A DNA stretch of 64,000 bases from assembly GCF_037975245.1 (NCBI RefSeq), contig NC_092583.1, forward strand, positions 14,485,264 to 14,549,263, in the 5' to 3' direction. Positions within the stretch are counted from its first letter, which is position 1. Every line of letters starts with the position of its first letter. Both the position numbers and the translations under genes were made by a program. The notes beneath the pieces were generated by a model, which was not told the DNA's origin, made no database searches, and saw only the letters and a program-made list of their open reading frames with translations. Source of the DNA: Apostichopus japonicus. Its lineage: Eukaryota; Echinodermata; Holothuroidea; Aspidochirotida; Stichopodidae. This document shows positions 7,081 through 50,910 of the stretch, piece after piece.

Positions 7081-7150
7081 CCTAAGCGGAGCGCCACCAT
7101 CGGTTGGCGCGTAGCGTACAAGAAAATTTTTGGCAAACAGTGCCTCTCAG
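7081..7150 (+). other. Structured motif, copy 1
   Basis: Left copy in the 6982-8521 element. Helix GCGCCA/TGGCGC is followed by GGCA/TGCC and then TGCCG-GAAA-CGGCA. The P1 5' strand is altered to CTAAG, weakening that helix. Compare the copies at 7978, 39308, 39832, 40004, 49899 and 50813. Confidence 0.55.
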
Positions 7151-7977
7151 ATTGCCGGAAACGGCACTTCTGAGGCCTTGCAAGTTGCATCTAAACATTC
7201 TTTAATTTTTAATCTCACGTTTTAGAAATTTCCACTTCCCCAAAAATATGGTAAATTAGAAGAAGAAAAAAAGGTAACATCACTTTGAAGGGGAAAAATG
7301 GGACAGTATATTTTTTAAGCTCCTATTTAGTTACCTTATTTATTATTTTAACACAGTACTCAGCTACTTCCAGAAAACATACATTGTTCAACGACACGTA
7401 GGCGGGATAATGTCGCTGTGTCGGGTGAGACTGCAATTTGTCTCACAAAAAAGTATAAAATATAACAAAGAATATGATAAACCTTTACTTTTAGGCTCGT
7501 AGGCACCCCCCCCCCCCACCATCCATGAAAAAGACAATGTTTCTTATATACACTCATGTCTGGGATGTCCAGGTCAAGTGCGGCGGAAGCACTTTCAATC
7601 TGGGGGGGGGGGCACCGACATCAAAGGGCACTTTGCAGAAATTCGATTGGACTGATGCAGCCATACCCTTTATAACTCTTATTGTATTATCTTATATCAC
7701 ATCACTCCATCAATGCCCCCCCCCCCCTCAAGGAAAATATGCTTACTAGCACTGCAATATCCAATGCGCAAATTGGGAAACAAAGAACAAGTTTTCTTTT
7801 GAGACAAAATGAGGTGAAATCATGCTAGTTGCTAATGTAGGAATCGTCCGAATTAGAGTTTTTTTCTTGTTAATATCTTAACAAATTTTGTTTCCATTCG
7901 AAATAGCTTTGAGTTTGACCCACAGAAATTCATTAAAAGTCACGGGCTTAGCCAGGATTTGCAAAGTTGTATGCACT

Positions 7978-8070
7978 ACTATCTGAGCGGAGCGCCACCA
8001 TCGGTCGGCGCGGAGCGTACTAGAAAATTTTTGGTTTTACAAACCCCTCAGATGGCCGGAAACGGCCCAT
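7978..8070 (+). other. Structured motif, copy 2
   Basis: Right copy in the 6982-8521 element. P1 ATCTGAG pairs with CTCAGAT. P2 is GCGCCA opposite CGGCGC, with one mismatch. P3 is GGTTT/AAACC. P4 is GGCCG-GAAA-CGGCC. All lie in order within about 90 bases. Confidence 0.55.
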
Positions 8071-8261
8071 CCCGAGTGTTAATTCTGGTTCCATGGCCTC
8101 TTGCTAACTTGAGGTACCTCAATTTTTATGTAGAAAAAGGCACATTTTTAACCTGAGGAAAAGTGGGGGGGGGGGCACGTGTCCCCCGGTTCCGCCACCC
8201 TTGGTCCAGGTATACAATTGACTAGTTAGAAAAAATTGATCGTGCAAAAAGGCGTGGTAGC

Positions 8262-8326
<65 letters not shown>

Positions 8327-8327
8327 A

Positions 8328-8401
<74 letters not shown>

Positions 8402-8406
8402 TATAT
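8262..8406. repeat. (TA)n microsatellite inside the hAT-type element
   Basis: TA repeats with a few interruptions lie near the right end of the element. The sister element at 49832-51436 has much shorter tracts at the same place (about 51229-51243 and 51307-51327), so the tract length has changed since the copies diverged. Confidence 0.9.
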
Positions 8407-8639
8407 TTTTTCTCCTCTTAGGCTGCCCGAATTTTCCAGGACTTTTGCCCGAATTTCTTGTCCTCTGGAAATTTGGGGGCAGTCTGCCCCCCCCCCCCTG
8501 CCCCCGCCTCGTACGCCTATGGGAATAGGCGGGAAAACCAGGGGAATTGCTGGGATAAAAGTTTTTCCAACCTGCACTTACGTTACTGGAGACGGAGGAG
8601 GGCTAGTATGGCGGACCATTATGGCGGGCCATCAGTCTC

Positions 8640-9489: not shown

Positions 9490-9560
9490 AAAGAGCGCCT
9501 AGCCTAGTACTACTAGTACAGTAGTAGTAGTCAGTAGTAGTACTAACTTAGTAGTAGTAG
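9490..9560. repeat. (TAG)n-rich microsatellite
   Basis: Imperfect TAG/TAC trinucleotide repeats stand directly before a dispersed repeat that recurs inverted at 30745-30865. Confidence 0.75.
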
Positions 9561-11509: not shown

Positions 11510-11511
11510 AC

Positions 11512-14500: not shown

Positions 14501-17500
14501 ATCAGAGTAATCTACTTGTAAGGCACTTCTCAGTTAAGTGAACTACACAGTCTGTGGTGCTATACTGTGTTTCCAGACACTTTGAGAGATCAGCGTACTT
14601 TCAGCACCAAACTAAAAGTTCTATTCATACCCCCCACCCCGCCCCCACCCCCCCACCTTCTGTAAGAAATTTAGCATATTATTTGATTGGCCAATGAAAC
14701 CTTACAGCTAAAACCTAGCATACTAAAAAAAAAGCCTTATTTCTTTCTTAACAGTCAAACACAATGACCTACATGTCTAAACTTGAAAAAAATATTTGCA
14801 AAATGTGTGCCAAGCTCACCCACAGTGATGTCAGATAGCAGCAATGCTCACCTCAAAATTCACATGCATACACTTTGTAATGGTTAAGTTTATTACTCGG
14901 TAAGTATCATATGTAAAGTCTCCAAATGTTTCAGATTTATTGATGATTTCATAATGATTTGAATTATATCACTTCAAATAATGTAACTATAATATAACTA
15001 AATGTGTCCGAAAAGCCTTGGTTTTTTCTTTCTCGTTTGTGCAGCCTCCAACGGTAACTTGCAGCACAAGGCTTTGGCATCCTAACATAACAGAAGACGG
15101 AAAAATTTGCCTTAGGTAAAGTAATATATATGAAGCATGCTACATGAATACTAACATACTGTACCTAACTAATTCAAAATGCTCTTATATTTGCATGTAA
15201 AAAGATTCCTGATAATGTTAGGTTAAGTTGTACAGTTTTGTATGCAAATCCTGGTCTGATAGTCAGAACGAAAATGCATGCAGGAGCCGTGCAGAGCAAA
15301 TCCTGGTCATTCTGTATTGTACAGTTTTGTATGCAAACACCTGGTCATTTTGTTTTGTACAGTTTTGTTTGCAAATCCTAGTCATTTTGTATTCTACAGT
15401 TTCGTGTGCAAATCCTGGTCATTTTGGATTGTACAGTTTTGTGTGCAAATCCTGGTCATTCTGTATTGTACAGTTTTGTGTGCAAATCCTGGTCATTCTG
15501 TATTGTAGAGTTTTGTATGCAAATCCTAGTCATTCTGTATTGTACAGATTTGTGTGTAAATCCTAGTCATTCTGTATTGTGCAGTTTTGTGTGCATATCC
15601 TGGTCATTCTGTATTGTTTTGAATGCAAACTCCTGATCATTCTGTATTGTACAGTTTTGTGTGCAAATCCTGGTCATTTTGGATTGTACAGTTTTGTATG
15701 CAAAATCCTGGTCATTCTGTATTGTACAGTTTTGTATGCAAACTCCTGGTCGTTCTGTATTGTACAGTTTTGTGTGCAAATCCTGGTCATTCTGTATTGT
15801 ACAGTTTTGTATGCAAACTCCTGATCATTCTGTAATGTACATTTTGTATGCAAATCCTGGTCATTCTGTATTGTACAGTTTTGTATGCAAACTCCTGGTC
15901 ATTCTGTATTGTGCAGTTTTGTGTGCAAATCCTGGTCATACTGTATTGTACAGTTTTGTATGCAAACTCCTGGTCATTCTGTATTGTACAGTTTTGTATG
16001 CAAACTCCTGGTCATTCTGTATTGTACAGTTTTGTGTGCAAATCCTGGTCATACTGTATTGTACAGTTTTGTGTGCAAATCCTGGTCATACTGTATTGTA
16101 CAGTTTTGTATGCAAACTCCTGGTCATTCTGTATTGTACAGTTTTGTATGCAAACTCCTGGTCATTCTGTATTGTACAGTTTTGTATGCAAACTCCTGAT
16201 CATTCTGTATTGTACAGTTTTGTATGCAAATCCTGGTCATTCTGTATTGTACAGCTTTGTGTGTAAATCCTAGTTGTTCTGTATTGTACAGTTTTGTGTG
16301 CAAATCCTGGCCATTCTGTATTGAACAGTTTTGTGTGCAAACTCGTAGTCATTCTGTATTGTGCAGTTTTGTATGCAAACTTGTAGTCATTCTGTATCGC
16401 ACAGTTTTGTATGCAAACTCCTGGTCATTCTGTATTGTACAGTTTTGTGTGTGAATCCTTGTCATTCTGTATTGTGCAGTTTTGTATGCAAACTCGTAGT
16501 CATTCTGTATCGCACAGTTTTGTATGCAATCTCCTAGTCATACTGTATTGTACAGTTTTGTATGCAAACTCCTGGTCATTCTGTATTGTACAGTTTTGTG
16601 TGTGAATCCTTGTCATTCTGTATTGTACAGTTTTGTGTGCAAATCCTTGTCATTCTGTATTGTGCAGTTTTGTGTGCAAATCCTGGTCATTTTGGATTGT
16701 CCAAAATCCTAGTCATTTTGCATTATACAGTTTTGTATGCAAATCCTGGTCATTCTGTATTGTACAGTTTTGTATGCAAACTCCTGGTCAATCTGTATTG
16801 TACAGTTTTGTATGCAAACTCCTGGTCAATCTGTATTGTAGTTTTGTATGCAAATCCTGGTCATTCTGTGCAACACAGTTACGGATGCAAATCTTGTCCA
16901 CTGTGTATTTTACACTTTTGTATGCAAAATGTTTAGTAACTTTATCTTTCCTTTCAGAGAATAGTTTAAATACTACCAGATTGTTGTAAATTGCTTTAAT
17001 TGACATCTTTATGATGGCGAAACCTAAACCATTCTTTAATAGCATATAAATCATCATCTAGCAGCTTTTTAAGTTGTGGTTTGTATATTTTCCTCACAGA
17101 TTTTCAGTACTATTTAAGATATCCATCAGAATGCTTTTCGTAAGTTTAAATAACTTTAAATCGTTTCAGATTATGAGAGTTCATACTTTAAAATAAAAAA
17201 AATTTCCATTTGCTTTTGAAAAGCATGTGGGTGGCTTAATGTTTAAATCTGATAGCACCTGTGATAACATGCTCGTCAATGAGACTCTGGTGACAAAGCA
17301 AGTAGGGAGTATTGAGCTCATCAATTGTGACCTCATTCTGTTAATAAGTTCAGATTCATTTTTGAAATCACAATCCTTGACAATGTTAGAATTTGACTAG
17401 GCTGGAGTTTCAAAAGCTTTCATTATGCCCAACAAAATCAGTTTTACCTAGGAATCCATATATGGCAATGAGAAAATTGTCTGTATGAATGTTTCAAGAT

Positions 17501-19375: not shown

Positions 19376-19447
19376 TCTCTACTGTATGAAAAACATTTGG
19401 TGACTCCCTTTGAGCATTACTAAGATCATGAAGAAATATATTTACAG

Positions 19448-21504: not shown

Positions 21505-21539
21505 CGCTTTAGCTTGTATGCACGATAACTGAACAAGGG

Positions 21540-28572: not shown

Positions 28573-28678
28573 TAATCATTAATAATCTATTGAACATAAG
28601 TTTTACCATAGCTACATTTGGAACATTATTAATTAACCAAAAAAGAATAAATTGTTCCTGAAGGATCCCAGCAACTTT

Positions 28679-32090: not shown

Positions 32091-32094
32091 AGGA

Positions 32095-32640: not shown

Positions 32641-33571
32641 AAGCTGGAATGAATATTTTTCTTACCGATATGTACAGCAGTTTGTAGGTTTCGGTGATTA
32701 GAAGTAGTAATGTTCTTCAAATTGTCCTCTGTTCTGTATCAGATGTAAGTGTTCTGTTATAAAGATCAGCATGACAAGGATATTTATTCAAATTTGCTAT
32801 TTGGTTTTAGTACCTAGAAGTCTCTTTTTTCTTTCTTTGCAGCTGTTTCTGACAGCAGAAGTATACATTAATCATAGCAAAAAGGAAATATGGTAACTTG
32901 AATCAAATTTCTTGTAAAACTGACTGGTGCTTGAATTAATAAAATAATAATAACATAAAATAAATAAGCTGTCAGGAACAGGTGTCAGCCTATAATTTAA
33001 GTTAGGCCTAATAGTAAGAAAAGAGTAATAACATTAATGTAAATACACCTACTCCAAGCTGTCATGCATTGCACTTGAGCGAAATTAATGGTTATCATCA
33101 GGGCCGCGTAAGAATTGTAATTATTTGCATTTTAAACTCTACTGTAGGCTATAGTTGTGGCCTTCATTTTATTATGGAAAATATTAGTCTAATATGTATA
33201 TATATATTAGGTAACAATGATGGGGCCGGGTGAAGGGTATGATGAATTGATTTGTTTGGGATATTTTTTTAAAGTAATGAGCAATATGTTATCTACAAGA
33301 TGTAATTTTTTCCAATGCCCAGTTGATTTTGACCTGAAAAAAATATTGTTTTGAGGTTAATCAGCTAGTGCTTATACAGTCCTTAGCTTTAAAGGTCTGC
33401 TGTGTAGACCCCAACTATAGCACGCTATCATGGAAAAGTTTCTTGAGATTACGTAAGCGACCTGCCTAGATGTAAATGATGGAATGTTAGAAATGATTTG
33501 GCAAAATTTGCTTTAATTTGTAACGTTACAGCTCTAGGCCTACACAATGTCCAAATGAATGCCCTGCTAGT

Positions 33572-33922
33572 CATAGGCGTAGGAGCCTAATTTGATTTGG
33601 GGGGCTGTAACGAACATTTTGGTAATATTTTCCTTGTTATTAACCCTTCCATATTGGTTATAATTATTGTGGAAGTCATTACAATAATAATATCAGTTTA
33701 ACCATTGAAAACACATTGCAGATTTTTCTTCTTTCACTAGGTGCCCGAAAAATTCTCAGCATATTGCCCGAATTTTCACCACAAAAAATTGAAAAAACAC
33801 ATTGCAAATTATTCTTCTCTCAGTAGGTGCCTGAAACATTCTCAGCATATTGCCCGAATTTTCACCAACAATTTTGGTTGGGGGGCTCCAGCCCCCCCCC
33901 CCCTCCGCCTCCTACGCCTATG
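33572..33922. mobile_element. hAT-type MITE, CATAGGCGTAGGAG ends, copy A
   Basis: Inverted ends CATAGGCGTAGGAG and CTCCTACGCCTATG are flanked by an 8-bp duplication with one mismatch (CTGCTAGT at 33564-33571, CTGCAAGT at 33923-33930). A G-run lies inside the left end and a C-run inside the right end. The same insertion is present in copy B at 46050-46434, so it predates the duplication. The ends are related to those of the 6982 and 49832 elements. Confidence 0.82.
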
Positions 33923-33930
33923 CTGCAAGT

Positions 33931-35650
33931 CATTTGGTACCATGTGCCTCTTTTATAGGATGAATCTTCCATCTATTAATGAAATACTGAATTTTCCAAG
34001 AATTTCTGGAAATAATGATGTCCTGTTGAAGCAGCATCCAGAATGGCATTAATTTAGGTTTATACCACACTGCCCTTTCTTCTGTCAGGCACTTTCAAAA
34101 TTCCAAATGGATATTTGTAAATAGCATGGATGATTTGGATCGAACGGGATTGTGGTTTCTCTGTATTTGTAGGAGACGGAAAGGTACATTTACAAGCAGG
34201 GTTCACCATTCACCATGCGTTCACTGGAAGCAGTTCTCCATGTCGGTAGTTATAGCTCGAAATAGTTCAATAACTTATTTTACAGGGATATTAATTTGGC
34301 CAGTGGCAGAGAGTGTGAAACTAATATTAAAATCTTGTCCAGGCTAATTTGAGTTACGTTTGAATGAATGTTAGCTAACTAACGTGACTGTTAACCCTCC
34401 CATACTAATACACATAGACCACAGTAGTTTGTCAAGTTTCTTGCTTTATGCTGTAAAATTGTTCCTTCAATCGTTTTATCTTTCTACGGAGATTTTCGGA
34501 GACTGTTGTTTGTATCACGGATAATCAAGTTAATCATTGTTTTATTCTTCGTGCGGATAATTATTATTTGGAGACAATAGCTAATAGCCTCTACACAGTT
34601 GAACTGCTCCGAGCTGTTAACTTTGTTTGAGGATAATATCATTTTTGCCTTGGGACATGACCTATTCCAGCTAATTAACTAAATTGGGGGAGTTCAATAT
34701 TTATATATTTTTACTTCCCCTAAAAGCCAACAATCAAGTGTTGCTATAATTTTATGACAAAGTAGATTCATAAGTCATAATCCATATCAATTATGTGTTT
34801 CAAACATAGTCGATGGTCGCTGTGTACACTCAAACGAGTCAAACACATGGAGTAACAAGAAATATGTAGACGATTGGTGGGGCTGTTTCAAAAAGTTTCT
34901 AATTGAGAGTTTCAGTCAGTAACATTTAGTCAATAAATGGATCATGGGTATTGGCAAAGCCTAACCAGAGGGATTTATGAGGTCTGTATCAGCTGCTGCA
35001 TATAATAACATTTCATAAGCCCTATTCATTCATTGTTGCTTTACTTGGAAATAATAATATTTAATCTATTTTCATGCGACAAGTAACTGTAGATTGTGTA
35101 TTAAGTGGTCTTGTTACTAATGATCTTTATCACACTTGTTAAATTGAGTGATATGTTGATTACACACACCAGTGATTAGTTCATGACACTAACTCCTTAT
35201 TTATCCATCTTTTGTTTTCTTGTTTCAGGCTATGAAGGTTGACAGACATCAGCTGATACTATTGGCAGTTATTGGGATTCGCGTTTCTTCAGAAAGATGA
35301 CTTTAAGTAAGTCTCGATCAAGAGCATATTCATAATATCAACACAGACTTCAGGTAAGAAATATTTGATATATTTAAACAAAAATGTTGGTGTTTATGGA
35401 GAAGAATGTTGTTTTTCCATCTCATTTATTTGCTCACCGGTGAATGTTTTCTTTGACTTGGAAATGATATGACTGTATGTCAAATAAACTTAGGTAAAAA
35501 AGAAAGAATCTTAAAATTAAAATGGATGCCAGAATTCTTGAAAGCGTCTGTAAAAGGAAGAGAAAGGTATTCATTGTCTCTCTATGGTAAAATATTAATA
35601 ATGTAGTACGTGTCCGGGGCACCTGTCGTTCATCTTTCAATTTAATATAT
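33931..35650. other. Non-coding stretch shared by both duplicates
   Basis: Highly similar to 46443-48145. Short open frames around 33960-34050 are conserved only because the copies are recent. At about 35229 an acceptor-like TTGTTTCAG precedes a short ATG frame, but the matching site in copy B has lost the acceptor (TGTTTTATG), which argues against a real exon. Confidence 0.5.
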
Positions 35651-35654
35651 TTAA

Positions 35655-36017
35655 AGGCATTGAACACTCGCCCCAAACCGCTTGCGGCCATCTGAAAAAG
35701 TTAACTTTCCGTTGCTTGCAAGTGACGTTTTGTTTGTGTCACTACAAAATGCAGACAGTACAGTAATGAAACGTGATACCTTGTTATTTTAGCTGGACCT
35801 GAGATGTCCATCGCTGTATTGTTTGTACACTGTGCTGTGGGTATTGACCGCAGCTGTATGTACTGACTGTACACTAGTGTCTAATTACCGATGGGAGCAA
35901 GCTGTGTGTGTATATTCTGGGATCGATGGTGGTGTCTAACACTCATGTTACACCTCATTTGAAACTAAGTCAGATTACCAGCATGTGAATTTCTTTTGGC
36001 GCGAGTCTTCACACCCT
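35655..36017. mobile_element. TTAA-type MITE (piggyBac-like), copy-A-specific
   Basis: The element is bounded by TTAA on both sides (35651-35654, 36018-36021). Its ends are inverted repeats, AGGCATTGAACACTCG at the left and the complement of AGGGTGTGAAGACTCG at the right. Copy B has the empty site with a single TTAA (near 48138-48145). Duplication of TTAA is the signature of piggyBac-type transposition. A sister element is at 38345-38700. Confidence 0.87.
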
Positions 36018-36879
36018 TTAACTCAGTCAAGGAACTGAGAAAAATCGAAAATTTTCATCCAAAAGTTACTCACAAAGGAATAGGACCAGAAAAGGTGTTC
36101 CAATGTCTTCAATTCTGTTTTGAAAAAGGGGGTGGGGGTGGGGAATTTTTTAGTTTTTGAATTACTTATGGAAAGAGCAAATCTGTAACTGGTTTCTTGA
36201 AAATTGCTTTAAAAGTTTAGATTGTCACACTAGCGTGATGAACCCATTAAAAAGTGGTTTTGCCAGACTCACCTCAGATTATAAATCATGAAGATTTGAC
36301 TTATTCATTATCAAATGAGATCATATCACTTTGTGAATTGTTGTTTCAGTACCAATTTTCATTCAAGATCCTTCGTTTTATGCAAATATTAATGTCGCAT
36401 TTCTTTGACAATTTGGTCGAAGATGAAAGAGTAGGCATTTAAGTTTGTAGTACACCTTCGTACGTCTCTGTCTGACAATCAGCCCATTGGTTGCTTATAT
36501 CCAACAGCTCATGTGGTATATAGCCTCTTTTATAGAATGGATTACAGCTCATTGTTATCACAGAGAAGTGGTCGTCAGAAGTGCTTGTTTAAAGTGAAAC
36601 ATTTAAAAAATTGATCAAAGCATTCCATGTCAACGTTTTCAGTCATAGTCAACAACTCAAAACCATGACATCATGGTTGGTTACGGTGGTGGTGCACACA
36701 TGGTAGTTGTGATCTTGTTACCAAGATAAAACAGAATATTGGAATCAAACGATTTTCTGGTTTTACAACACTTCTTGTTCTTTTGTCAGGCATTGCCATT
36801 AAAATATGATGCCATGCTTCTAGAACCATTAGCAGGTGTGCAATATTCTCTATCTTTTGTCTTTTCTGCAGTTGGCTTG

Positions 36880-37545
36880 TTGCTCAGTTTTGTGAGGTGA
36901 AGATGGAGAGAGCTGATGTAAGGTTTCCTTTCTTCTACTCCCTCTTTCTCCCAGTCCCCACTCCTTCTCTATGCCTCCCCATCCCTCCCTCCCCCTATCT
37001 CCCTATCGTATTTGATATGTCTCACTGTAGCCTTGTTCTTTTAGATATCAAGAAGAAGATGGAAGGAGATGCAGGACGTTGTCAGAAGACGTACGTGGCG
37101 CCAGGCAGGTTTTGTGGGGAATGTAATGCACGTGATATGTCTTAATACTATGGCAGTGTTCTTTCAGATTTCTGGAGCAAGGTGGACTTAGACTGGGACC
37201 AAAGAAGACGGATCGGGCTGCCGGGCGAATATGGAGGTGTATTTCGTTGGTTTTGATAGATCTTAACTCTCACTTGTAGTCTTGTTATTTCAGATATCAA
37301 GGAAATGATATCCTGCATCGGATGATAGAAGATGGGGGCTCCGGGCTGGATGGTGTGGTATTTTGTTGTATTTTTTTACAGCCTTATTTTTTCAGATATC
37401 CGTAACAAGGTGGACAAACACCAGGACGACAGCTAACGATGACACAAGATGGACGGCCGCACTGGGCTGAGTATTTAGTTGTATTTGATATGTCTTAACT
37501 CCCACTTTGCAGTTCAGGATGTATCCCTCCCTTTCACCCCCTCCC
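36880..37545. repeat. Diverged tandem array with TTCTTTCAGATATCAAG units, copy A
   Basis: Units of about 110-180 bp each contain a pyrimidine-rich stretch ending CAGATATC (or a variant), followed by AAGATGGA-like and GGCGCCGGGC-like segments and a TTGATATGTCTTAAC segment. Each unit therefore looks like a 3' splice site followed by a short exon, but frames are not conserved. CCCTCCCT runs lie at both sides. Copy B (49040-52060) has more units plus a transposon. Confidence 0.7.
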
Positions 37546-38344
37546 TCCCTCCCTCCCTGTCACCCTCTCCCTCCCTACAAGATATGATCGATTTCCTTGT
37601 TAGACATTTGATTGGCCATCATCATACAAATCTGTTCATGTGATACTACTGAAGTTATTCAGCAGGTGGTTCAAGTCCACCAACAGATTAACACGTACTT
37701 GGCCATTCAGATGCTAATAATAACCCAAATGCCATTTCTGTCATTGTTTTCAATCCTAAGAAATAATCCAAACTCTTTTTCACCCAGAATTTTGGTTAAA
37801 ATGCATTTGGATGATACTTGTTCCTATCCTTCCCTAGACTAGGTTGCTTGATTGACTCAGCTGTTGTTGGGAAAACATGCACAATGCTTTCAGGATCCCT
37901 GTGACACAGTTTTTGCCTGTTTGGTAACAAATTTTCAAACACAAGGCAGTTGCCATTGTGGTTTATATCACAGCTTAGGTGGTCAGCATCTCCCTCCTAG
38001 TTATCAACCCTCTTTCACATCCTGTGTCTTCTTCGGTGGTTATGGATACTGCCTAGTAATTTACAGCATGTGACTACTCTCAATGTTCCTTACTGGTTTT
38101 TTTAATTAAGGTATCACCTCATCTACCTTTAGACAGGTAGTCTGGGCTGACCATTTGCCAAATATGGGATTCTAATTTCCTTTCCAGCCTGTGGCCTTGT
38201 TACATAGTGTAAAGTATATAAGAGGTGGTTCATCTCTGTTTAGGGGTCTGTTTGCATCTCATCTTGCAAATGTGAAGGTTAGGTCTTTTTCATCACATCT
38301 TGCCATGTGAAGTTAGACCAATATTAAAGTGACTTAGCGCTTAA

Positions 38345-39227: not shown

Positions 39228-39276
39228 ATGCACACACACATAACTAACTACTTACTAGTAGTTAGTTATGTGTATG
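39228..39276. other. Perfect hairpin, 17-bp stem, 4-nt loop
   Basis: TAACTAACTACT at 39241-39252 is followed by TACT and then the exact complement AGTAGTTAGTTA. The stem extends outward through CACACA/TGTGT for about five more pairs. It sits just before a motif copy at 39308; it may be the edge of a fold-back element. Confidence 0.75.
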
Positions 39277-39307
39277 TGCCCAGGATTTTCAAAGTTGTAG
39301 GCACGAC

Positions 39308-39400
39308 TATCTGAGCGGAGCGCCACCATTGGTTGGCGCGGAGTGTACAAGAAAATTTTTGGTTTTACAAACCCCCCAGATGGCTGGAAACGGCCCTTCC
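39308..39400 (+). other. Structured motif, copy 3 (solitary)
   Basis: Same order of helices as the other copies: P1 CTGAG opposite a CCAGA variant, P2 GCGCCA/TGGCGC, P3 GGTTT/AAACC, P4 GGCTG-GAAA-CGGCC, in which a T-G wobble replaces a C-G pair. Preceded by CCAGGATTTTCAAAGTTGTA, as at 7958 and 50787. No complete element ends were found around it. Confidence 0.5.
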
Positions 39401-39831
39401 CGAGTGTTCATTCTGGTTCCCTGTCTTCATGCTAACTTGAGACACCTCATTCAATATCACTTTAAAACCCCAAAACAAACAAGTTAAAATAGTGCGTAAT
39501 GCAATACTACATAATGTATTTAAAATAAGCAAGGTACATGTACTGAGTAGTCTTACTTTTCAACTTCTGATACTTGTAGATACAAAGATAGGCCAGAATT
39601 GTCTTTGATACAACCATAGCCAGTAATTGATACAACTGTAATTGTTTAAGTTAGCCTAATAAGAGAAGGCGAGAGCTATCCGACGATTGCCATCTGATGC
39701 AAATTTCTTCTGCACAGCTTCAACGTCATTTGCAAAGTCTCTGTGGATGTCAGTGGCGTAGTCAGGGTTTTTTCAGTGGGGGAGGGGCGCTGGGGGGGCT
39801 TGACCATTTCCTGGGAGGGCGTCTTGTTACT

Positions 39832-39915
39832 ATCTAAGCTGAGCGCCACAATGGGTTGGCGCGCAGCGTACCTAATTTTTTTAGCTAAAAGGCCTCCTAG
39901 ATCGTCGGAAATGAC
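39832..39915 (+). other. Structured motif, copy 4
   Basis: P1 is ATCTA/TAGAT, in which an A-T pair replaces the G-C pair of the 7978 copy. P2 is GCGCCA/TGGCGC. P4 is GTCG-GAAA-TGAC, with changed but still paired bases. P3 is unclear. Confidence 0.5.
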
Positions 39916-40003
39916 ACTTCCCAATTCTTGTAAGCAGGGGCCGCGTCAATCTGATTTGAAACTTGGGGGGACGTAAGCGATTCGAGTATTCCGGTCGCAA
40001 GTA

Positions 40004-40095
40004 CTATCTAAGCGGAGTGCCACCATCGGTTGGCGCGCAGCATACCAAGAAAATTTCAGATTTCAATATCTGCCAAATTGCCAGGCTGGATAGCA
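40004..40095 (+). other. Structured motif, copy 5 (degenerate)
   Basis: P2 is GTGCCA/TGGCGC with a T-G wobble. A different helix, CAGAT/ATCTG, occupies the P3 position. P1 and the GAAA hairpin are lost (TTGCCAGGCTGG). Confidence 0.4.
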
Positions 40096-40783
40096 GCCAT
40101 CTAGTTGCGTGATTTCGGGAGAAAATTACAAATTCGTCACTCAGGAAATCTGCAATAAAGTTCATGCGGCCTTATTTTTGGGTGGATTATTGCAACTTAT
40201 TAGCGATTCCAATTGACATCAACATTAGAACCCAGTGCAAGTTGACAAATGATGTGGCAAACTGGAAACCCCAGCCCCATTTTGCCCTATGTTTCAGGAT
40301 AGAATACCCCTCATTTGTTCAAACCCATGCATGACAACTAACAATCTGTGAATAAATTTTCTTCAAAATGGGCACATTATATTGCACCAAGTCGGTCAAG
40401 GAATGACCCCTAGGCCTCAGATATAGGCCTATAGGAACGATGCCGCAAAATGTCCCCGGATATACTACAGGCGAAGGAAGCTATCCGCCGCGACTGCATG
40501 TGCGACTGCGGTCGAAGTGTCGTTCATGAGTGGTCATCATGGAGATTCGAGACCATTCAGACCAATAATATATTTTTCGCACATTTGGGAGGGCGTCAAG
40601 CTTTCATGGGGGCTGTCGCCGCCACGCCCCCCTTGGTTACACCACTGGTGGATTTGCATGAGTGCCAAACCGCTGAGTCTCTCTTCATTCATTGTAGAAC
40701 GCATGTAGTTTTTTGTTCTGCGCATTGCGCTGAAAGACCTTTCAGCAGTTGCCGAAGCTATTGGCATGGTTAACCATGGTTAG

Positions 40784-41113: not shown

Positions 41114-41502
41114 GGATGCAATGCATGGTTAATGATGTCTAAACAATGCAGGCAGAAATGAGAGGAAGGTTTGTTACAACCCATAACACATATGAGTGGT
41201 ATTGAGAGGCAAGAAAATGAGCACAAATTAAACAAATACTTCATTAAACCATGTCTCTTTTATAAAAGACACCCTCACCTTCTGTTACTCCCTTGCACCC
41301 ACCCACCAGCCAGACAGCCACTCCACCACCTTCCCAGCCACTCCACCTTCCCAGACCCAAATTCCTGGTTACTACTCTAGATACGAAATCATATATAATC
41401 ATTAATAATCTATTGAACATAAGTTTTACCATAAGCTACATTGGAACATTATTAATTAACCCCCCCCCCAAAAAAATTTTCCTGAAGGATCCCAGCAACT
41501 TT

Positions 41503-42885
41503 TTACTTGGTGCAAACTGCGCATGTCAGCTCGTATCCGTTAACGTAAGGACCACATGGCAAACCTCCACCTGTCCCTGAGCAAATTCCCTCAACAGGCT
41601 GCATGGTAGCAAAATCGTTGCTGGCTGCAGCCGTACCAGAGCGATACGTAGGATGCCCATCAAGGCATACGTACTGTGTACGTTGATGTGTGCTTCTTTC
41701 AGCCATTAGGAACCCGTAGTATTCTCTAGTCCAACCACTGGGACAAGACGGACGAGCTGGGACCATGAGTACAGTGGACCGGCCGATGGACTCACAGACT
41801 GCACACGGAACATCATGCTCAACAAGAGACTGTATTGGCGGGAAATCAAATCTGTATTCTACACCATATAGTCTGCTGGTTCTGTCTTGGACACCATTCT
41901 GGGGTCTGTCATAGACTGGACTCTCTGGAAGGCAAAGGTAATTGGCACCCCCTCCTGTGGCAGCACGTTCTGCTCCTGCAGCTAAACCACTATACACCTG
42001 GTCAGCTGAGGACGGGCACACGTCCCTCCCCCAACGGATGTAGACGCCACCTGATGAACCTGAGGAAAGATGAAGGCCGGCTTGATTAGAAATGGTTGCT
42101 ATAAAGTGACACTGACTCTGCTCAGATTATTTCAATGGCTTAAAGTCAATTAATTCTCTCAGTGAGTTGCAAAGTTCCATACCGTACACCATGGTATTTG
42201 AAATCCCTGCTCTTCCATAAGCTGAAGGTACAGGAAGGGTCATTTTCAAATTTATTTTAGTTTTAAAGCCCATCAGTCACCCATCTATTTCTGTGTGGAG
42301 TTTCGATGTCCCCAACCCTGCTTCCACCTCCTACCTTCACGAAGCTTGCTGACTTGGCAGATTTTAGAAGAATATCGTAGCATTTCGATTTAGTTCTTTT
42401 TAGTTTGTGCTGTTAATCATGCATATTCACGAATATGGTATATATGTTAAAACATAATTAAATTCCATGATCTATCTATGTAGAGTAAATGATGACACTC
42501 ATAAATCTCATGCTCATATATATGAAGTGAATAGCCCATTACTTTCAGATGTTTTGACTTGATCCATCATCTCTGCTTCACTCAGTGCAGTCTGTATGGG
42601 AGTAGAGTTCTGCTTATCGTTGGTGAATCGAGAATGGAAGAGATCGTAAAGATAGTCTAATTGTACTTGCTGATCATGAATGACCTCTGCTAAATCCACA
42701 GCATCAGTCGGACTGCTCTCTGCTCCCTCAGTATTTGAGGTACCATTCTCTGCATCCGGTAGTCCAATCGCCTCATTGTCGTCTATCTCAGACTGCGCTG
42801 GCATTTCCTGGGACCCTTCCATCGGTATCCCAGAACCTGCAGCCAGCACCGTCAATAAAAGCAGCTTTGTAAATGTTGCTTCCAT
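41503..42885 (-). CDS. Secreted short-chain-collagen-C4-like protein, paralogue B (two exons)
   Basis: Exons are 42885-42543 and 42059-41503, phase 1, canonical splice sites, 299 aa. Exon 1 encodes a signal peptide (MEATFTKLLLLTVLAAGSG), an acidic linker with N-glycosylation sites (NGT, NST) and a short leucine-rich segment. Exon 2 encodes the same ten-cysteine C4-type domain as paralogue A, intact to a TAA stop. It differs from A by about fifteen residues in exon 2, concentrated in three short stretches (around AERAATGG, PPIQSLVEHDV and ASNDFATMQ), and by a one-residue deletion. Key cysteines and W/G residues are unchanged. The 18-nt micro-exon candidate is at 42335-42352. It arose by the tandem duplication that made copy B. 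Function as for paralogue A; it may be redundant or expressed differently. Confidence 0.82.
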
Positions 42886-43712
42886 CTGGACTAGAGAAAA
42901 CAAAATACAAAAAAAGTGGACAGTACATCATGGTCCTTTCAAAAAGTTTCAAATTAATTGCACATGTTTTCTAAGGCATCACACTTTTTCACTCTAAATT
43001 GAATTTGCATGTTTTTCTACTACAAGAGCAACATAATGTGAAGCATGAAAGAACCTGATGATTACAACACTTGAGCATCTTGCTTATACAGGAAGCTGAG
43101 GGCAAAATGAATCTATATACGATGGTGATGGCGTGTGAGTGTGTATGTATGTGGTACCTTAGCTCCTGAACATGATAGCTCACCAAGAGCACAGTGCATC
43201 AACTCCAAGCTTAGTATGTAGATTCCCCTTAGTAAGTTCTTGACAGCTTATTGAACAAGGTCAAAGGTCATTTGAGGTTACCAACTTGGCAAAAATAATG
43301 AAAATGTTGTAACTTAGCTTACTTGAACACCTAGCTGCAGCATTGGTTTTATTGCATAATTGGGTGGTAGATTCCCCTCTATCTTGAGCAATTTTGATGA
43401 GGTCATAGGTCAGTTGAAGTGGACAGGAAGCAAAACCTAAGCGCCTTGTAAATTAGGTAACTCGATAATTCTACCAGATTGATGAATCTCATTGTTGTAT
43501 TAAGGGGACCTTCAGTAAGTTCTAAGCAGCTGCAATCCTTATTGGGGAATGTCAAAGGTCATTTGAGGTCCTTGTAAATATGATTACTCCAAAAGTAGAG
43601 CTTCAATGAATCTCATACTTATAATATACATTCATCTTAGTGAGTACAAGAACTGTAATGTTTTTTTTTGAAGATGTCAAAGTTCAATAAAAGTCAATTG
43701 TCTGGAAACAAG
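42886..43712. other. Upstream of paralogue B
   Basis: Matches the sequence upstream of paralogue A, including AGGTCA-type half sites at about 43257-43278 and 43552-43570. No exon recognised. Confidence 0.55.
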
Positions 43713-45116
43713 TATGGATGGGTCTGGGAGACTAGGACTTTAAACAGATCTAGAGTTTGGATGGCTCTAGGAGACTAGGACTAAACAGATCTAGAGTATG
43801 GATGGGTCTAGGAGACTAGGACTAAACAGATCTAGAGTATGGATGGGTCTAGGAGACTAGGACTAAATAGATCTAGAGTATGGAAGGGTCTAGGAGACTA
43901 GGACTAAACAGATCTAGAGTATGGATGGGTCTAGGAGACTAGGACTAAACAGATCTAGAGTTTGGATGGGTCTAGGAGACTAGGACTAAACAGATCTAAA
44001 GTATGGATGGGTCTAGGAGATTAGGACTAAACAGATCTAGAGTATGGATGGGTCTGGGAGACTAGGACTAAACAGATCTAGAGTATGGATGGGTCTAGGA
44101 GACTAGGACTAAACAGATCTAGAGTTTGGATGGGTCTAGGAGACTAGGACTAAACAGATCTAAAGTATGGATGGGTCTAGGAGACTAGGACTAAACAGAT
44201 CTAGAGTATGGATGGGTCTGGGAGACTAGGACTAAACAGATCTAGGGTATGGATGGGTCTAGGAGACTAGGACTAAACAGATCTACGTATGGATGGGTCT
44301 AGGAGACTAGGACTAAAACAGATCTAGAGTATGGATGGGTCTAGGAGACTAGGACTAAACAGATCTAGAGTATGGATGGGTCTAAGAGACTAGGACTAAA
44401 CAGATCTAGAGCATGGATGGGTCTAGGAGACTAGGACTAAACAGATCTAGAGTATGGATGGGTCTAGGAGACTAGGACTAAACAGATCTAGAGTATGGAT
44501 GGGTCTAGGAGACTAGGACTAAAACAGATCTAGAGTACGGATGGGTCTATGAGACTAGGACTAAACAGATCTAGAGTATGGATGGGTCTGGGAGACTAGG
44601 ACTAAACAGATCTAGAGTTTGGATGGCTCTAGGAGACTAGGACTAACAGATCTAGAGAAAGGATGAGTCTAGGAGACTAGGACTAAACAGATCTAGAGAA
44701 TGGATGGGTCTAGGAGACTAGGACTAAACAGATCTAGAGTATGGATGGGTCTAGGAAACTAGGACTAAACAGATCTAGAGTATGGATGGGTCTAGGAGAC
44801 TAGGACTAAACAGATCTAGAGTATGGATGGGTCTAGGAGACTAGGACTAAAACAGATCTAGAGTATGGATGGGTCTATGAGACTAGGACTAAACAGATCT
44901 AGAGTATGGATGGGTCTGGGAGACTAGGACTAAACAGATCTAGAGTTTGGATGGCTCTAGGAGACTAGGACTAACAGATCTAGAGAAAGGATGAGTCTAG
45001 GAGACTAGGACTAAACAGATCTAGAGAATGGATGGGTCTAGGAGACTAGGACTAAACAGATCTAGAGTATGGATGGGTCTAGGAGAGTAGGACTTAACAG
45101 ATCTAGAGTATTTAAA
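43713..45116. repeat. 41-bp minisatellite, copy B (about 34 units)
   Basis: Same unit as 32095-32640 but expanded about 2.6-fold. Variant units (GTTTGGATGGCTCTAGG, AGAAAGGATGAGTC) recur at about 44616 and 44943, about 324 bp apart, so part of the growth was by duplication of blocks of about eight units. Confidence 0.95.
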
Positions 45117-45659
45117 GCTGGAATGAATATTTTTCTTACCGATATGTACAGCAGTTTGTAGGTTTCGGTGATTAGAAGTAGTAATTTTCTTCAAATTGTC
45201 CTCTGTTCTGTATCAGATGTAAGTGTTCTGTTATAAAGATCAGCATGACAAGGATATTTATTCAAATTTGCTATTTGGTTTTAGTACCTACAGGTCTCTT
45301 TTTTTCTTTCTTTGCAGCTGTTTCTGACAGCAGAAGTATACATAAATCATAGCAAAAAGGAAATATAGAAACTTGAATCAAATTTCTTGTAAAACTGACT
45401 GGTGCTTGAATTATTAAAATAATAATAACATAAAATAAATAAGCTGTCAGGAACAGGTGTCAGCCTATAATTTATGTTAGACCTAATAGTAAGAAAAGAG
45501 TAAGAAAATTAATGTAAATACACCTACTCCAAGCTGTCATGCATTGTACTTGAGTGAAATTAATGGTTATCATCAGGGGTAAGAATTATTTGCATTTTAA
45601 ACTCTACTGTAGGCTATAGTTGTGGCCTTCATTTTATTAGGGAAAATATTAGTCTAATA

Positions 45660-45685
45660 TGTATATATATATATATATATATATT
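45660..45685. repeat. (TA)n microsatellite
   Basis: Longer than the matching tract in copy A (about 33198-33209), showing expansion or contraction after duplication. Confidence 0.85.
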
Positions 45686-46049
45686 AGGTAACGATGATGG
45701 GGCCGGGTGAAGGGTATGATGAATTGATTTGTTTGGGATTTTTTTTTAAAGTAAAGAGCAATATGTTATCTACAAGATGTAATTTTTTCCAATGCCCAGT
45801 TGATTTTGACCTGAAAAAAAATATTGTTTTGACTTTAATCAGCTAGTGCTTATACAGTCCTTAGCTTTGAAGGTCTGCTGTATAGACCCCAACTATAGCA
45901 CGCTATCATGGAAAAGTTTCTTGAGATTACGTAAGCGACCTGCCTAGATGTAAATGCTGGAATGTTAGAAATGATTTGGCAAAATTTGCTTTAATTTGTA
46001 ACGTTACAGCTCTAGGCCTACACAGTGTCCAAATGAATGCCCTGCTAGT

Positions 46050-46434
46050 CATAGGCGTAGGAGCCTAATTTGATATGGGGGGCTGTAACGACTTGCCCGA
46101 AAAATATAAACAAAATTTTTCGCGAAAATTTTGGTAATATTTTCCTTGTTATTAACCCTTCCATATTGGTTATAATTATTGTGGAAGTCGTTACAATAAT
46201 AATATCAGTTTAACCATTGAAAACACATTGCAGATTTTTCTTCTTTCACTAGGTGCCCGAAAAATTCTCAGCATATTGCCCGAATTTTCACCACAAAAAA
46301 TTGAAAAAACACATTGCAAATTATTCTTCTCTCAGTAGGTGCCTGAAACATTCTCAGCAAATTGCCCGAATTTTCACCAAAAATTTTGGTTGGGGGGCTC
46401 CAGCCCCCCCCCCCCTCCGCCTCCTACGCCTATG
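46050..46434. mobile_element. hAT-type MITE, CATAGGCGTAGGAG ends, copy B
   Basis: Orthologous to 33572-33922 with the same flanks (CTGCTAGT, CTGCAAGT). It is 34 bp longer, with an internal stretch near 46090-46125 that is missing from copy A. Confidence 0.82.
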
Positions 46435-46442
46435 CTGCAAGT

Positions 46443-49040
46443 CATTTGGTACCATGTGCCTCTTTTATAGGATGAATCTTCCATCTATTAATGAAATACT
46501 GAATTTTCCAAGAATTTCTGGAAATAATGATGTCCTGTTGAAGCAGCATCCAGAATGGCATTAATTTAGGTTTATACCACACTGCCCTTTCTTCTGTCAG
46601 GCACTTTCAAAATTCCAAATGGATATTTGTAAATAGCATGGATGATTTGGATCGAACGGGATTGTGGTTTCTCTGTATTTGTAGGAGACGGAAAGGTACA
46701 TTTACAAGCAGGGTTCACCATGCGTTCACTGGAAGCAGTCCTCCATGTCGGTAGTTATAGCTCGAATTAGTTCAATAACTTATTTTACAGGGACATTAAT
46801 TTGGCCAGTGGCAGAGAGTGTGAAACTAATATTAAAATCTTATCCAGGCTAATTTGAGTTACGTTTGAATGAATGTTAGCTAACTAACGTGACTGTTAAC
46901 CCTCCCATACTAATACACATAGACCACAGTAGTTTGTCAAGTTTCTTGCTTTATGCTGTAAAATTGTTCCTTCAATCGTTTTATCTTTCTACGGAGATTT
47001 TCGGAGACTGTTGTTTGTATCACGGATAATCAAGTTAATCATTGTTTTATTCTTCGTGCGCATAATTATTATTTGGAGACAATAGCTAATAGCCTCTACA
47101 CAGTTGAACTGCTCCGAGGTGTTAAATTTGTTTGAGGATAATATCATTTTTGCCTTGGGACATGACCTATTCCAGCTAATTAACTAAATTGGGGGAGTTC
47201 AATATTTATCTATTTTTACTTCCCCTAAAAGCCAACAATCAAGTGTTGCTATAATTTTATGACAAAGTAGATTCATAAGTCATAATCCATATCAATTATG
47301 TGTTTCAAACATAGTCGATGGTCGCTGTGTACACTCAAACACATGGGGTAACAAGAAATATGTAGACGATTGGTGGGGCTGTTTCAAAAAGTTTCTAATT
47401 GAGAGTTTCAGTCAGTAACATTTAGTCAATAAATGGATCATGGGTATTGGCAAAGCCTAACCAGAGGGATTTATGAGGTCTGTATCAGCTGCTGCATATA
47501 ATAACATTTCATAAGCCCTATTCATTCATTGTTGCTTTACTTGGAAATAATAATATTTAATCTATTTTCATGCGACAAGTAACTGTAGATTGTGTATTAA
47601 GTGGCCTTGTTACTAATGATCTTTATCACACTTGTTAAAATTGAGTGATATGTTGATTACACACACCAGTGATTAGTTCATGAAACTAACTCCTTATTTA
47701 TCCATCTTTTGTTTTCTTGTTTTATGCTCTGAAGACTGACAGACATCAGCTGATACTATTAGCAGATATTGGGATTCGCATTTCTTCAGAAAAATGACTT
47801 GAAGTAAGTCTTGACCAAGAGCGTATTCGTAATATCAACAGACTTCAGGTATTGTATTATACATTTAACCAAAAATGTTGGTGTTTATGGAGAAGAATGT
47901 TGTTTTTCCATCTCATTTATTTGCTTACCTATGAATGTTTTCTTTGACTTGGAAATGAAATTACTGTATGTCAAATAAACATAGCTAAAAAAGAAAGAAT
48001 CTTTCAATCTTAAAATTAAAATGTATGCCAGAATTCTTGAAAGCGTCGGTAAAAGGAAGAAAAAGGTTTCTCTATGGTAAAATAATAGTATTGTAGTAAG
48101 TATCCGGGCGACCTGTCGTTCATCTTTCAGTTGAATATATTTAACTCAGTCAAGGAAATGAGACAAATCTATGAAAATTTTCATCCAAAAAAGTTACTCA
48201 AAAAGGAACAGGACCAGAAAAGGTGTTCCGATGTCTCCAATTCTGTTTTGCAAAAGGTGAGTGGGGGGGGGGGCTGGGAATCTTTTAATTTTTGAATTAC
48301 TTATGAACAGCAACTCTGTAACTGTTTCTTGACAATTGCTTTAAAAGTTTAGATTGTCACACTAGCATGATGAACCCATTAAAAAGTGGTTTTAAATTAT
48401 AAACCATGAAGATTTGACCTATTCATTATCAAATGAGATCATATCACTTTGTGAAGTGTTGTTTCAGTACCAATTTTCATTCAAGATCCTTCATTTTATG
48501 CAAATATTAATGTCGCATTTCTTTGACAATTTGGTCGAAGATGAAAGAGTAGGCATTTAAGTTTGTAGTACACCTTCGTACGTCTCTGTCTGACAATCAG
48601 CCCATTGGTTGCTTATATCCAACAGCTCATGTGGTATATAGCCTCTTTTATAGAATGGATTACAGCTCATTGTTATCACAGGGAAGTGGTCGTAAGAAGA
48701 GACTATGATGGCAGCCAGCAATTGAAGTGCTTGTTTAATGTGAAACATTTAAAAAATTGATCAAAACATTCCATGTCAATGTTTTTCAGTCATAGTCAAC
48801 AACTCAAAACCATGACATCGTGGTTGGTTACGGTGGTGGTGCACACATGGTAGTTGTGATCTTGTTACCAAAATAAAACAGAATATTGGAATCAAACGAT
48901 TTTCTGGTTTTACAACACTTCTTGTTCTTTTGTCAGGCATTGCCATTAAAATATGATGCCATGCTTCTAGAACCATTAGCAGGTGTGCAATATTCTCTAT
49001 CTTTTGCCTTTTCTGCAGTTGGCTTGTTGCTCAGTTTTGA
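46443..49040. other. Non-coding stretch shared with copy A
   Basis: Matches 33931-36880 without the TTAA-type insertion. No gene recognised. A G-run at about 48264-48275 is copy-specific. Confidence 0.55.
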
Positions 49041-49898
49041 TGTGAGGTGAAGATGGAGAGAGCTGATGTAAGGTTTCCTTTCCTCCACTCCCTCTTTCTC
49101 CCAGTTCCCTCTCCTTCTCTATGCCTCGCCATCCCTCCCTCCCCATCCCTCCCTCCCCATCCCTCCCTCCCCTATCTCCCTATTGTATTTGGTATGTCTC
49201 ACTGTAGCCTTGTTCTTTCAGATATCAAGAAGATGCAAGGAGACGCAGGACGATGTCAATAGACGGATGTGGCGCCAGGCAGGTTTTGTGGGAATGTAAC
49301 GCTTGTGATATGTCTTAACACATTTACTATAGCAGTGTTCTTTCAGATTTCTGGAGCAAGGTGGACTTAGACCAGGACCAAAGAAGATGGACGAGGGCGC
49401 CAGGCAGGATTGTGTGGTTTTCTTAATTGTATTTGATTTGATATCTTGATATGTCCTGATGAAGGCACCAGCCGGGTTGGTGGGGAAGGTAATACATGGG
49501 ATATGTCTTAATGTATTTACTATAGCCTTGTTCTTTCAGTAACCAGAAGGTGGACGGAGACCAGGACAACTGTTAAAAAAGAAAGAAGACATATGGGGGT
49601 GCCGGGGTGATTTGGTGGGGTATTTCATTGTATTTGTTAGATCTTAACTCTCACTTGTAGCCTTGTTCTTTCAGATATCAAGAAAAAGATGGATGGCTGG
49701 GGGCACCGGGCAGGATTGTGTGGTATTTGATATGTCTTAACGTTTCTCTATAGCCTTATTTTTTTCAGATTTCTGGCTCACGGTGGACGAAGGCCAATTA
49801 CAAATACGGGCAGGTGCCCGGATGGTGTGGTCATAGGCGTACGGGACCATTTCAGTTTGGGGGGGCAGAACTTTTTGTGCCCGAAAGTTCCCGTGACA

Positions 49899-49990
49899 CT
49901 ATCTAAGCGGAGCGCCACCATCGGTTGGCGCGTAGCGTACAAAAAATTTTTTGGCAAACAATGCCTCTCAGATTGCCGGAAACGGCACTT
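49899..49990 (+). other. Structured motif, copy 6
   Basis: Left copy in the 49832 element: P1 ATCTAAG opposite CTCAGAT with one mismatch, P2 GCGCCA/TGGCGC, P3 GGCA/TGCC, P4 TGCCG-GAAA-CGGCA. Confidence 0.55.
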
Positions 49991-50812
49991 CTGAGGCCTT
50001 GCAAGTTGCATCTAAACATTCTTTATTTTATAATCTCACGTTTTAGAAATTTACACTTCCCCAAAAATTTGGTAAATTAGAAGAAGAAAAAATGGTAACA
50101 TCACTTTGAAGGGGGAAAATGGGACAGTATAATTTTTAATCTCCTATTTAGTTAGCTGAGTACTGTGTTAAAATAATAACATACATACATACATACATTG
50201 TTCAACGACACGTAGGCGGGATAATGTCGCTGTGCCGGGTGCGACTGCAATTTGTCTCACAAAACAGTATAAAATGTAACAAGAATATGATAAACCTGTA
50301 CTATTAGGCTTGTAGGCACTCCCCCCCCCCCCCACCCCACCATCCATGAAAAAGAAAATGTTTCTTATATACACTCATGTTGGGGGTGTCCAGGTCAAGG
50401 CGGCGGAAGCACTTTAATCTGGGGGGCACTGACATCAAAGGGCACTTTGTAGAAATTCGATTGGACTGAAGCAGCCTTACATTTAGTACCCTTAATAACT
50501 CTTATTGTATTATCTTATTTGCGTATACACATCACTCCATCAACGCCCCCCCCCCCCCCCCCCAAGGAAAATATGCCTATACTAGCACTGCAATATCCAA
50601 TGCGCAAATTGGGAAACAAGGAACAAGTTTTCTTTTGAGACAAAATGAGGTGAAATCATGCTAGTTGCTAATGTAGGAATCTTCCGAATTAAAGTTTTTT
50701 TCTTGTTAATATCTTAACAAATTTTTTCCATTCAAAATAGCTTTGAGTTTGACCCACAGAAATTCATTAAAAGTCACGGGCTTAGCCAGGATTTGCAAAG
50801 TTGTATGTACAA

Positions 50813-50910
50813 CTATCTGAGCGGAGCGCCACCATCGGTTGGCGCGGAGCGTACTAGAAAATTTTTGGTTTTTGCAAACCCCTCAGATGGCCGGAAACGG
50901 CCCTTCCCGA
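50813..50910 (+). other. Structured motif, copy 7
   Basis: Right copy in the 49832 element. All helices are intact: P1 ATCTGAG/CTCAGAT, P2 GCGCCA/TGGCGC, P3 GGTTT/AAACC, P4 GGCCG-GAAA-CGGCC. Confidence 0.58.

Follow-up and report, generated by a model that had tools for sequence, protein, structure and literature searches.

A hairpin-rich repeated module near one end of hAT-type transposons as a candidate cis-acting DNA site

A hairpin-rich stretch of about 95-105 bp lies near one end of two kinds of hAT-type element in the 64,000 nucleotides of Apostichopus japonicus DNA analyzed here (the window), and some of its small inverted repeats stay matched as their letters change. The original prediction read it as a structured RNA of the plus strand. 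The locus raises the question of whether this module is an RNA, a site in DNA, or a passively inherited sequence. Our analysis points, tentatively, to a cis-acting DNA module, subterminal in one end of non-autonomous hAT-type transposons, and more likely to a DNA handling site than to plus-strand RNA.

Module copies and the elements that carry them

When a model built from the seven copies was run over the window with filters off, it returned those seven at 105.1-154.5 bits (E 2.5e-24 or better) and a best non-copy place at 13.4 bits (E 0.42); with such a model, the margin over the eighth place is the only part that carries information. The search confirmed the seven predicted positions and their single orientation, and the ends and 8-bp duplications of the elements confirmed that six copies form pairs in three hAT-type elements, with the copy at 39308 solitary. 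The motif had been described as always on the plus strand; the orientation is indeed plus, and its meaning is limited to three elements and one relic that lie the same way. The features are as follows.

6982..8521, plus strand: E1, a non-autonomous hAT-type element with ends CATAGGCGCACG.../...CGTACGCCTATG
7021..7040, no strand assigned: 20-bp perfect palindrome inside an inserted segment of the E1 left end, without counterpart in E3
7079..7172, no strand assigned: module, 5' copy of E1 (143 bits; 97 bp from the tip)
7980..8073, no strand assigned: module, 3' copy of E1 (154.5 bits; 39 bp past end-like sequence at 7941)
39280..39449, no strand assigned: 170-bp relic with the solitary module copy at 39308-39401 (148.6 bits)
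39751..40647, plus strand: E4, a non-autonomous hAT-type element of a different family from E1/E3, with ends CAGTGGCGTAG.../...TTACACCACTG
39831..39921, no strand assigned: module, first copy of E4 (116.6 bits; 80 bp from the tip)
40005..40105, no strand assigned: module, second copy of E4 (105.1 bits; 254 bp from the tip)
46050..46434, plus strand: M3, a related hAT-type element without the module (duplication 7/8)
49832..51436, plus strand: E3, second member of the E1 family, with the 8-bp duplication GGTGTGGT on both sides
49900..49993, no strand assigned: module, 5' copy of E3 (147.7 bits; 68 bp from the tip)
50814..50908, no strand assigned: module, 3' copy of E3 (152.9 bits)

E1, E3 and E4 fit the hAT superfamily by their 8-bp target duplications and short terminal inverted repeats that start with CA. 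The duplications are identical at 8/8 bases for E1 (GGAATAGG on either flank) and E3, and at 7/8 for E4 (GTGGATGT/GTGGATTT); a search for a clean empty site for any of the three found none. All three termini are CA...TG, and the inverted repeats are CATAGGCGTACG (12 bp) in E3, CATAGGCGCACG against CATAGGCGTACG in E1, and CAGTGGCGTAG against CAGTGGTGTAA in E4. E1 and E3 are identical at 1359/1462 aligned positions, and the relic is 90.0% identical to 7952-8121 and 90.6% identical to 50786-50956. The window holds 26 stop-to-stop ORFs of at least 110 aa; eight of them, including the one at 40435-40773 that overlaps E4, were queried against Pfam with no match; two low-complexity ORFs at the E1 end are among the others.

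M3, of which a second copy at 33572-33922 represents the same insertion within a segmental duplication, is 67% identical to both E3 tips, and the module's model gave it just 10.3 bits (E 2.5). Elements of this kind resemble E3 at both tips yet have no module, so movement does not in general depend on it. GCGTAC, a word from the ends of E1 and E3, also occurs within the module, with 8 of its 11 occurrences in the window falling in the elements and the relic; we treat this recurrence as weak and made no use of it, since by our estimate roughly three in every ten pairs of this kind would have some 6-mer in common.

Conservation, pairing and searches for relatives

At E 0.1 or better, E4 matches E1 and E3 only in the module and in the 40-base G-rich run that precedes it, and for the second E4 copy the common stretch is only 52-80 bases. 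Within the module, a strongly conserved 41-bp box, TATCTRAGCGGAGCGCCACCATCGGTTGGCGCGNAGCGTAC, contains the quasi-palindrome P2; the remaining ~50 bp, with two further small inverted repeats (P3 and P4), changes faster. Across four lineages, the 41-column core is identical in 17 of 22 unpaired and 17 of 19 paired columns: conservation is almost as strong outside the helices as within them, and the core keeps its letters and not just its pairing. Between E1 and E3, 90/94 positions are identical in the 5' module copies and 91/94 in the 3' copies, barely better than the 746/790 of the stretch between the modules. The two copies within an element are much less alike than E1 and E3 copies at matching positions: the 5' and 3' copies of E1 are 91% identical over the first 55 bp and dissimilar beyond, except for a 28-bp block at 86%.

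Four helices had been described as recurring in order, with pairing kept through base changes. This was confirmed in part. Plus-strand pairing holds in 41/42 cells of P2 (the figure on either strand), 32/35 of P4, 40/49 of P1 and 27/35 of P3. The full 7-bp P1 is present on the plus strand in only two of the seven copies (7978 and 50813); in the 5' copy at 49899, ATCTAAG faces CTCAGAT with an A.C mismatch. GAAA is kept in 6/7 copies, the one at 40004 having neither a homologous P4 nor the GAAA loop and carrying another hairpin, GGCTG/CAGCC, a few bases downstream. The 39832 copy, which alone has ATCTA/TAGAT in P1 and GTCG/TGAC in P4, shows a weak best hairpin at the P3 position (p 0.13 and 0.09). 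The inverted repeats themselves are genuine, and for P3 and P4, whose arms change together, pairing does persist through base changes. P3-position hairpins exceeded shuffles when four representatives were combined, with Fisher p values of 0.0004 (plus) and 4e-05 (minus), for windows picked afterwards in related lineages.

Departures from Watson-Crick pairing on the plus strand comprise 13 A.C and 5 G.T, and the counts (G.T/A.C) differ in direction among P1 (0/8), P4 (3/2), P2 (1/1) and P3 (1/2), so that they track no single strand across the whole structure. In P1, which would close the structure, the pattern runs opposite to the mismatches tolerable in an RNA from the plus strand; its bias has p 0.008 if cells are independent, which they are not. 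Of 161 cells, 91.9% pair on the minus strand and 87.0% on the plus; minus-strand P1 pairs in 98.0% of cells, with one pair running through G-C, G.U and A-U. Five pairs show double-sided changes, a number reached by 68/500 shuffles on the plus strand and 90/500 on the minus. Cell-based covariation measures on the plus strand exceed 500/500 shuffles but are inflated by the relatedness of the copies, and about four lineages lie behind all of these counts.

With all seven plus-strand sequences, RNAalifold returned two of the four helices, or three after gap-rich columns were dropped, and P1 in no run. On the minus strand it found all four unprompted, with 25 pairs, four of them with double-sided change; P3 was not recovered there from four representatives. 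From three lineages (40004 left out), all four helices appeared on both strands. On either strand, the consensus fold was more stable than 500/500 column shuffles (z -5.2 and -5.4; dinucleotides not kept). The covariation term of this comparison, whose sign convention is unconfirmed, was not exceptional: 377 and 475 of 500 shuffles were as low or lower. Single-copy folding lay further below shuffles on the plus than on the minus strand in 6/7 copies, with plus-strand MFE z-scores of -0.99 to -3.43; plus-strand energies gain from the energy model's bonus for the GAAA loop.

Rfam gave no match in the whole window at gathering score. At E 10, the segment 39250-40150 again gave none, and 49832-51000 gave five weak matches only; two of these reach into the final 10 bases of one copy, with scores far under the gathering thresholds. 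Within this scope, known RNA families were rejected; the original prediction had likewise recognized no Rfam family. Also rejected were a tRNA-like structure (ARAGORN 0), a hammerhead, whose CUGANGA core was not seen on inspection by eye, and a unit of retrozyme or LTR type, for which the copies within a single element differ too much.

Two contig collections, viral_contigs and genome_contigs, which may leave out the window's own genome, were also scanned. The viral_contigs scans yielded 0, 6, 0, 86, 0 and 6 stretches: the first set of six was one identical sequence throughout, without the hairpin; the second had no match to E 10 and appears unrelated; and all 86 look like chance, the 80 tested with model R1 giving no match to E 1. 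In genome_contigs, 22 bacterial loci gave eight matches to E 1 (best 24.1 bits, E 0.002), but all eight were confined to model positions 29-56, a span made up of the 21-base pattern used for the search plus a few neighboring bases. They were thus selected by the pattern, and we rejected these loci as relatives. A literature search with literal sequence words of the module returned no paper, and titles and abstract openings held no description of it.

A site in DNA or a structured RNA

For the DNA module, we infer the following as the most likely course of events. A transposase from an autonomous relative may bind the module through BED zinc fingers, two of which would cooperate on one quasi-palindrome, and the bound module would mark that end for transpososome assembly; template switching, which can alter hairpin-prone DNA, would let the two sides of each small inverted repeat stay matched as their letters change. 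This reading is suggested by a module common to two families that are otherwise dissimilar, the G-rich run apart, by core letters kept in unpaired columns too, by pairing departures that follow no one strand overall, and by a first copy 68-97 bp inside the left tip in all three elements. It also has a precedent in Hermes, where two subterminal repeats form a quasi-palindrome in the left end that is bound jointly by two BED domains (PMC10368747). The template-switching step draws on PMC8794818, in which template switching is able to produce compensatory changes, and on the 20-bp palindrome of E1 that E3 lacks. Against the DNA module, M3 resembles E3 at both tips but has no module; a conserved unit of ~100 bp is unusual beside the short motifs (4-8 bp) known to be bound in hAT elements; the letters of P3 and P4 change, which one would not expect from a protein of fixed specificity; all four minus-strand helices come out of RNAalifold unprompted, as for an RNA; and the E1/E3 modules are barely more conserved than the sequence that separates them.

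A structured minus-strand RNA in an element transcript, in which the P4 hairpin would be followed by P1 closing a junction with the P3 and P2 hairpins, and which could serve stability, processing or self-cleavage, seems somewhat unlikely. The unprompted four-helix fold, the nearly complete pairing of P1 with its three pair types at one position, and the higher share of paired cells all favor it. However, its double-sided pairs are matched by 90/500 shuffles, single-copy folding is weaker than on the plus strand in 6/7 copies, P4 and P2 show A.C there where the plus strand shows G.T, P3 is lost with four representatives, and the Rfam searches gave no family at gathering score and none or weak matches leniently. 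We know of no transcript for such an RNA. A new four-helix family on the minus strand, carried by at least two cut-and-paste hAT families and kept as nearly all else turned over, is likewise unlikely; to our knowledge, no DNA transposon carries a structured RNA of this kind.

Also unlikely, in our judgment, is a module with no present function, inherited passively and swapped between families by recombination, its inverted repeats being part coincidence and part template-switch products. The few lineages, the similar preservation of modules and intervening stretch in E1 and E3, and the lack of a module in M3 fit this account; a core kept between families otherwise dissimilar, apart from the G-rich run, does not, and the E1/E3 differences may postdate insertion, when no constraint would be expected. 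The weakest account is the plus-strand RNA under selection first proposed, with a GNRA-capped P4: 87.0% of cells pair, GAAA is present in 6/7 copies, P4 has 3 G.T against 2 A.C, single-copy folding favors this strand and RNAalifold gives three helices once gap-rich columns are dropped, but the P1 excess of A.C (eight against no G.T), double-sided changes reached by 68/500 shuffles and the lack of P1 in RNAalifold from seven sequences make it very improbable.

Symmetric protein sites combined with template switching, acting at the DNA level, also predict the data. Should the module serve as a platform for transposase, hAT families would have in common a long, modular and exchangeable end signal, one that would go some way toward explaining the mobilization of non-autonomous copies across families. 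Should it be an RNA, cut-and-paste transposons would be added to the elements with a conserved structured RNA. In both cases, the module offers a good test case for separating genuine covariation in RNA from the repair of DNA palindromes by template switching, with the direction of wobble by strand (G.U or A.C) over many copies deciding between the two.

Comparison with known systems

Hammerhead-bearing retrozymes and Penelope-like elements are mobile elements with structured RNAs. Like them, the elements described here have direct repeats carrying a compact multi-helix structure; unlike them, they yielded no Rfam family and look cut-and-paste, and, unlike in retrozymes, no two near-identical direct repeats bound one unit.

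Another likeness is to the hAT subterminal repeats of Hermes, Herves and Kat1, in that the module's motif is repeated a short way inside the transposon end; Herves has imperfect 100-bp tandem repeats in its left end. As in Hermes, a quasi-palindrome (P2) lies near the left tip, the first module copy being 68-97 bp from it and the Hermes quasi-palindrome within the first 27 bp (PMC10368747). In contrast to the subterminal binding motifs of 4-8 bp given for Hermes, Herves and Kat1, and for Ac, Tol2 and Tag1 as cited in the papers on them, the module is a single unit of ~100 bp, contains three or four inverted repeats and occurs in two families.

Module copies and their host elements

The original prediction of seven module copies holds. 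Searched with a covariance model derived from the copies themselves (filters off), the window yielded these seven and no others, at scores of 105.1-154.5 bits; the next-best place reached 13.4 bits (E 0.42). The 5' part of the module aligned without gaps over ~60 bases, and the majority of these columns were invariant. No relatives of the module were found in the two collections scanned (viral contigs and genome contigs), and all inferences below have as their basis seven copies from ~4 lineages. E1, E3 and E4 carry two copies apiece in the same orientation.

Elements carrying the module
6982-8521: E1, hAT-type, one family with E3; perfect 8-bp duplication
49832-51436: E3, hAT-type, one family with E1; perfect 8-bp duplication
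39751-40647: E4, hAT-type, family other than E1/E3; duplication matching at 7 of 8 positions
39280-39449: relic of 170 bp with the seventh copy; 90% identity to the surroundings of the E1 and E3 3' copies

E1 and E3 were identical at 1359 of 1462 aligned positions, with 154 gap positions. No transposase was seen among the window ORFs of at least 110 aa (26 listed, with Pfam run on 8). The sequence CACGGGCTTAGCCAGGATTT lies at 7941 and 50775, 39 bp ahead of the E1 and E3 3' copies, and we take it to resemble a hAT end, so that E1 and E3 may be composite elements; no duplication that would back this was found. Near the E3 right end, 51242-51397 is an inverted repeat (78-nt arms, 95% complementary), the corresponding part of E1 containing a long TA repeat, and another inverted repeat at 39230-39279 (23-nt arms, 96% complementary) directly adjoins the solitary relic.

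When E4 was compared with E1 and E3 in a sensitive search (to E 0.1), eight matches were obtained, all on a single strand; seven of them start no more than 3 bases from the module start, and the remaining one starts 40 bases earlier, within a G-rich run. Matches of the first E4 copy reach 14-19 bases past helix P4; those of the second (40004) span just 52-80 bases and end ahead of P4. From their position and extent, the part common to the two families is the module, or its first half.

The window also holds a broken segmental duplication (28573-37865 and 41396-52463, ~12.5 kb apart, pieces 82-95% identical). The E3 site belongs to a part of the second unit without counterpart in the first, and a minus-strand ORF without a Pfam match is doubled (28679-29458 and 41503-42126). 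In another minus-strand ORF (5892-6263), Pfam identified a GIY-YIG domain (24.6 bits, E 3.1e-05); this ORF is perhaps a Penelope-like element remnant.

Tandem repeat arrays (self-comparison, units from offsets)
15296-16930: unit ~37 bp
32111-32637: unit ~41 bp
43711-45111: unit ~41 bp
58021-58942: unit ~100 bp
61436-62996: unit ~100 bp

Pairing, covariation and strand

Scored over 161 cells, the 23 originally predicted pairs of helices P1 to P4 formed in 87.0% (plus strand) and 91.9% (minus strand), and a shift of the partners by 1-3 columns left 30-47% of cells paired. Five pairs showed double-sided change on either strand, a number reached by 68 (plus) and 90 (minus) of 500 shuffles. The number of cells with double change (10 plus, 11 minus) and the covariation score were each matched or surpassed by at most one shuffle in 500, relatedness inflating both. 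RNAalifold on all seven sequences gave 15 plus-strand pairs (P2 and P4), or three helices (P2, P3 and P4) with gap-rich columns removed, and 25 minus-strand pairs in all four helices. With one sequence per lineage (n=4), the plus strand retained P2 and P4 and the minus strand P1 and P2, together with a shortened P4; without 40004 (three lineages), all four helices formed on both strands. Consensus energy was better than in 500 of 500 column shuffles on plus and minus alike, and the covariation term was not outstanding, 377/500 and 475/500 column shuffles being equal or lower.

In plus-strand letters, the 161 cells comprised 135 Watson-Crick, 5 G.T, 13 A.C and 8 other combinations. The excess of A.C over G.T gave p 0.096 for all cells and p 0.008 for P1 alone, from few, non-independent events, and some departures arose after insertion, in single copies. 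P1 had 8 A.C and no G.T, the opposite of what is expected of a plus-strand RNA; on the minus strand A.C becomes G.U, and P1 was paired there in 98.0% of cells. P4 had 3 G.T and 2 A.C. Any RNA may come from either strand, P1 pointing to minus and P4 leaning slightly to plus. In single-copy folding, the plus strand lay further below its shuffles than the minus strand in six of seven copies (z of -0.99 to -3.43 versus -0.07 to -2.61), an advantage to which the energy model's GAAA bonus contributes.

Conserved letters and possible template switching

The reading preferred to a structured RNA is a cis-acting DNA module in which template switching may keep the hairpin arms complementary. With columns gapped in any of four lineages excluded, the 41-column core had identical letters across lineages at 17 of 22 unpaired columns and at 17 of 19 paired columns, compared with 6 of 24 and 8 of 26 outside it; the core is kept as sequence. 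In P3 and P4 the letters differ between lineages and the arms stay complementary. At P3 the loop is altered too (GGCAAACAATGCC versus GGTTTTACAAACC), for which a multi-base template-switch event would account as readily as stepwise compensation; PMC8794818 describes compensatory changes arising from template switching. The E1 left end has a 20-bp perfect palindrome inside an insertion, absent from E3.

A related family and hAT precedents

33572-33922 and 46050-46434: M3, third hAT-type family; one insertion, doubled by the segmental duplication

M3 and E3 have both tips in common (67% identity), and their left-end match stops at 49886, short of the E3 module at 49900. The module covariance model found no module in M3 (best score 10.3 bits, E 2.5), which counts against a general need for it.

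A transposase may bind the module, by analogy with known hAT elements. Subterminal repeats are used, or thought to be used, by Kat1 and Herves (PMC4763223 and PMC3143072). According to PMC10368747, two BED domains jointly bind a quasi-palindrome of two subterminal repeats at the Hermes left end, and ~70% activity remained after mutation of more interior sites. The arrangement in E1, E3 and E4 fits this precedent: the module contains a conserved quasi-palindrome, and its first copy lies 68-97 bp inward of the left tip.
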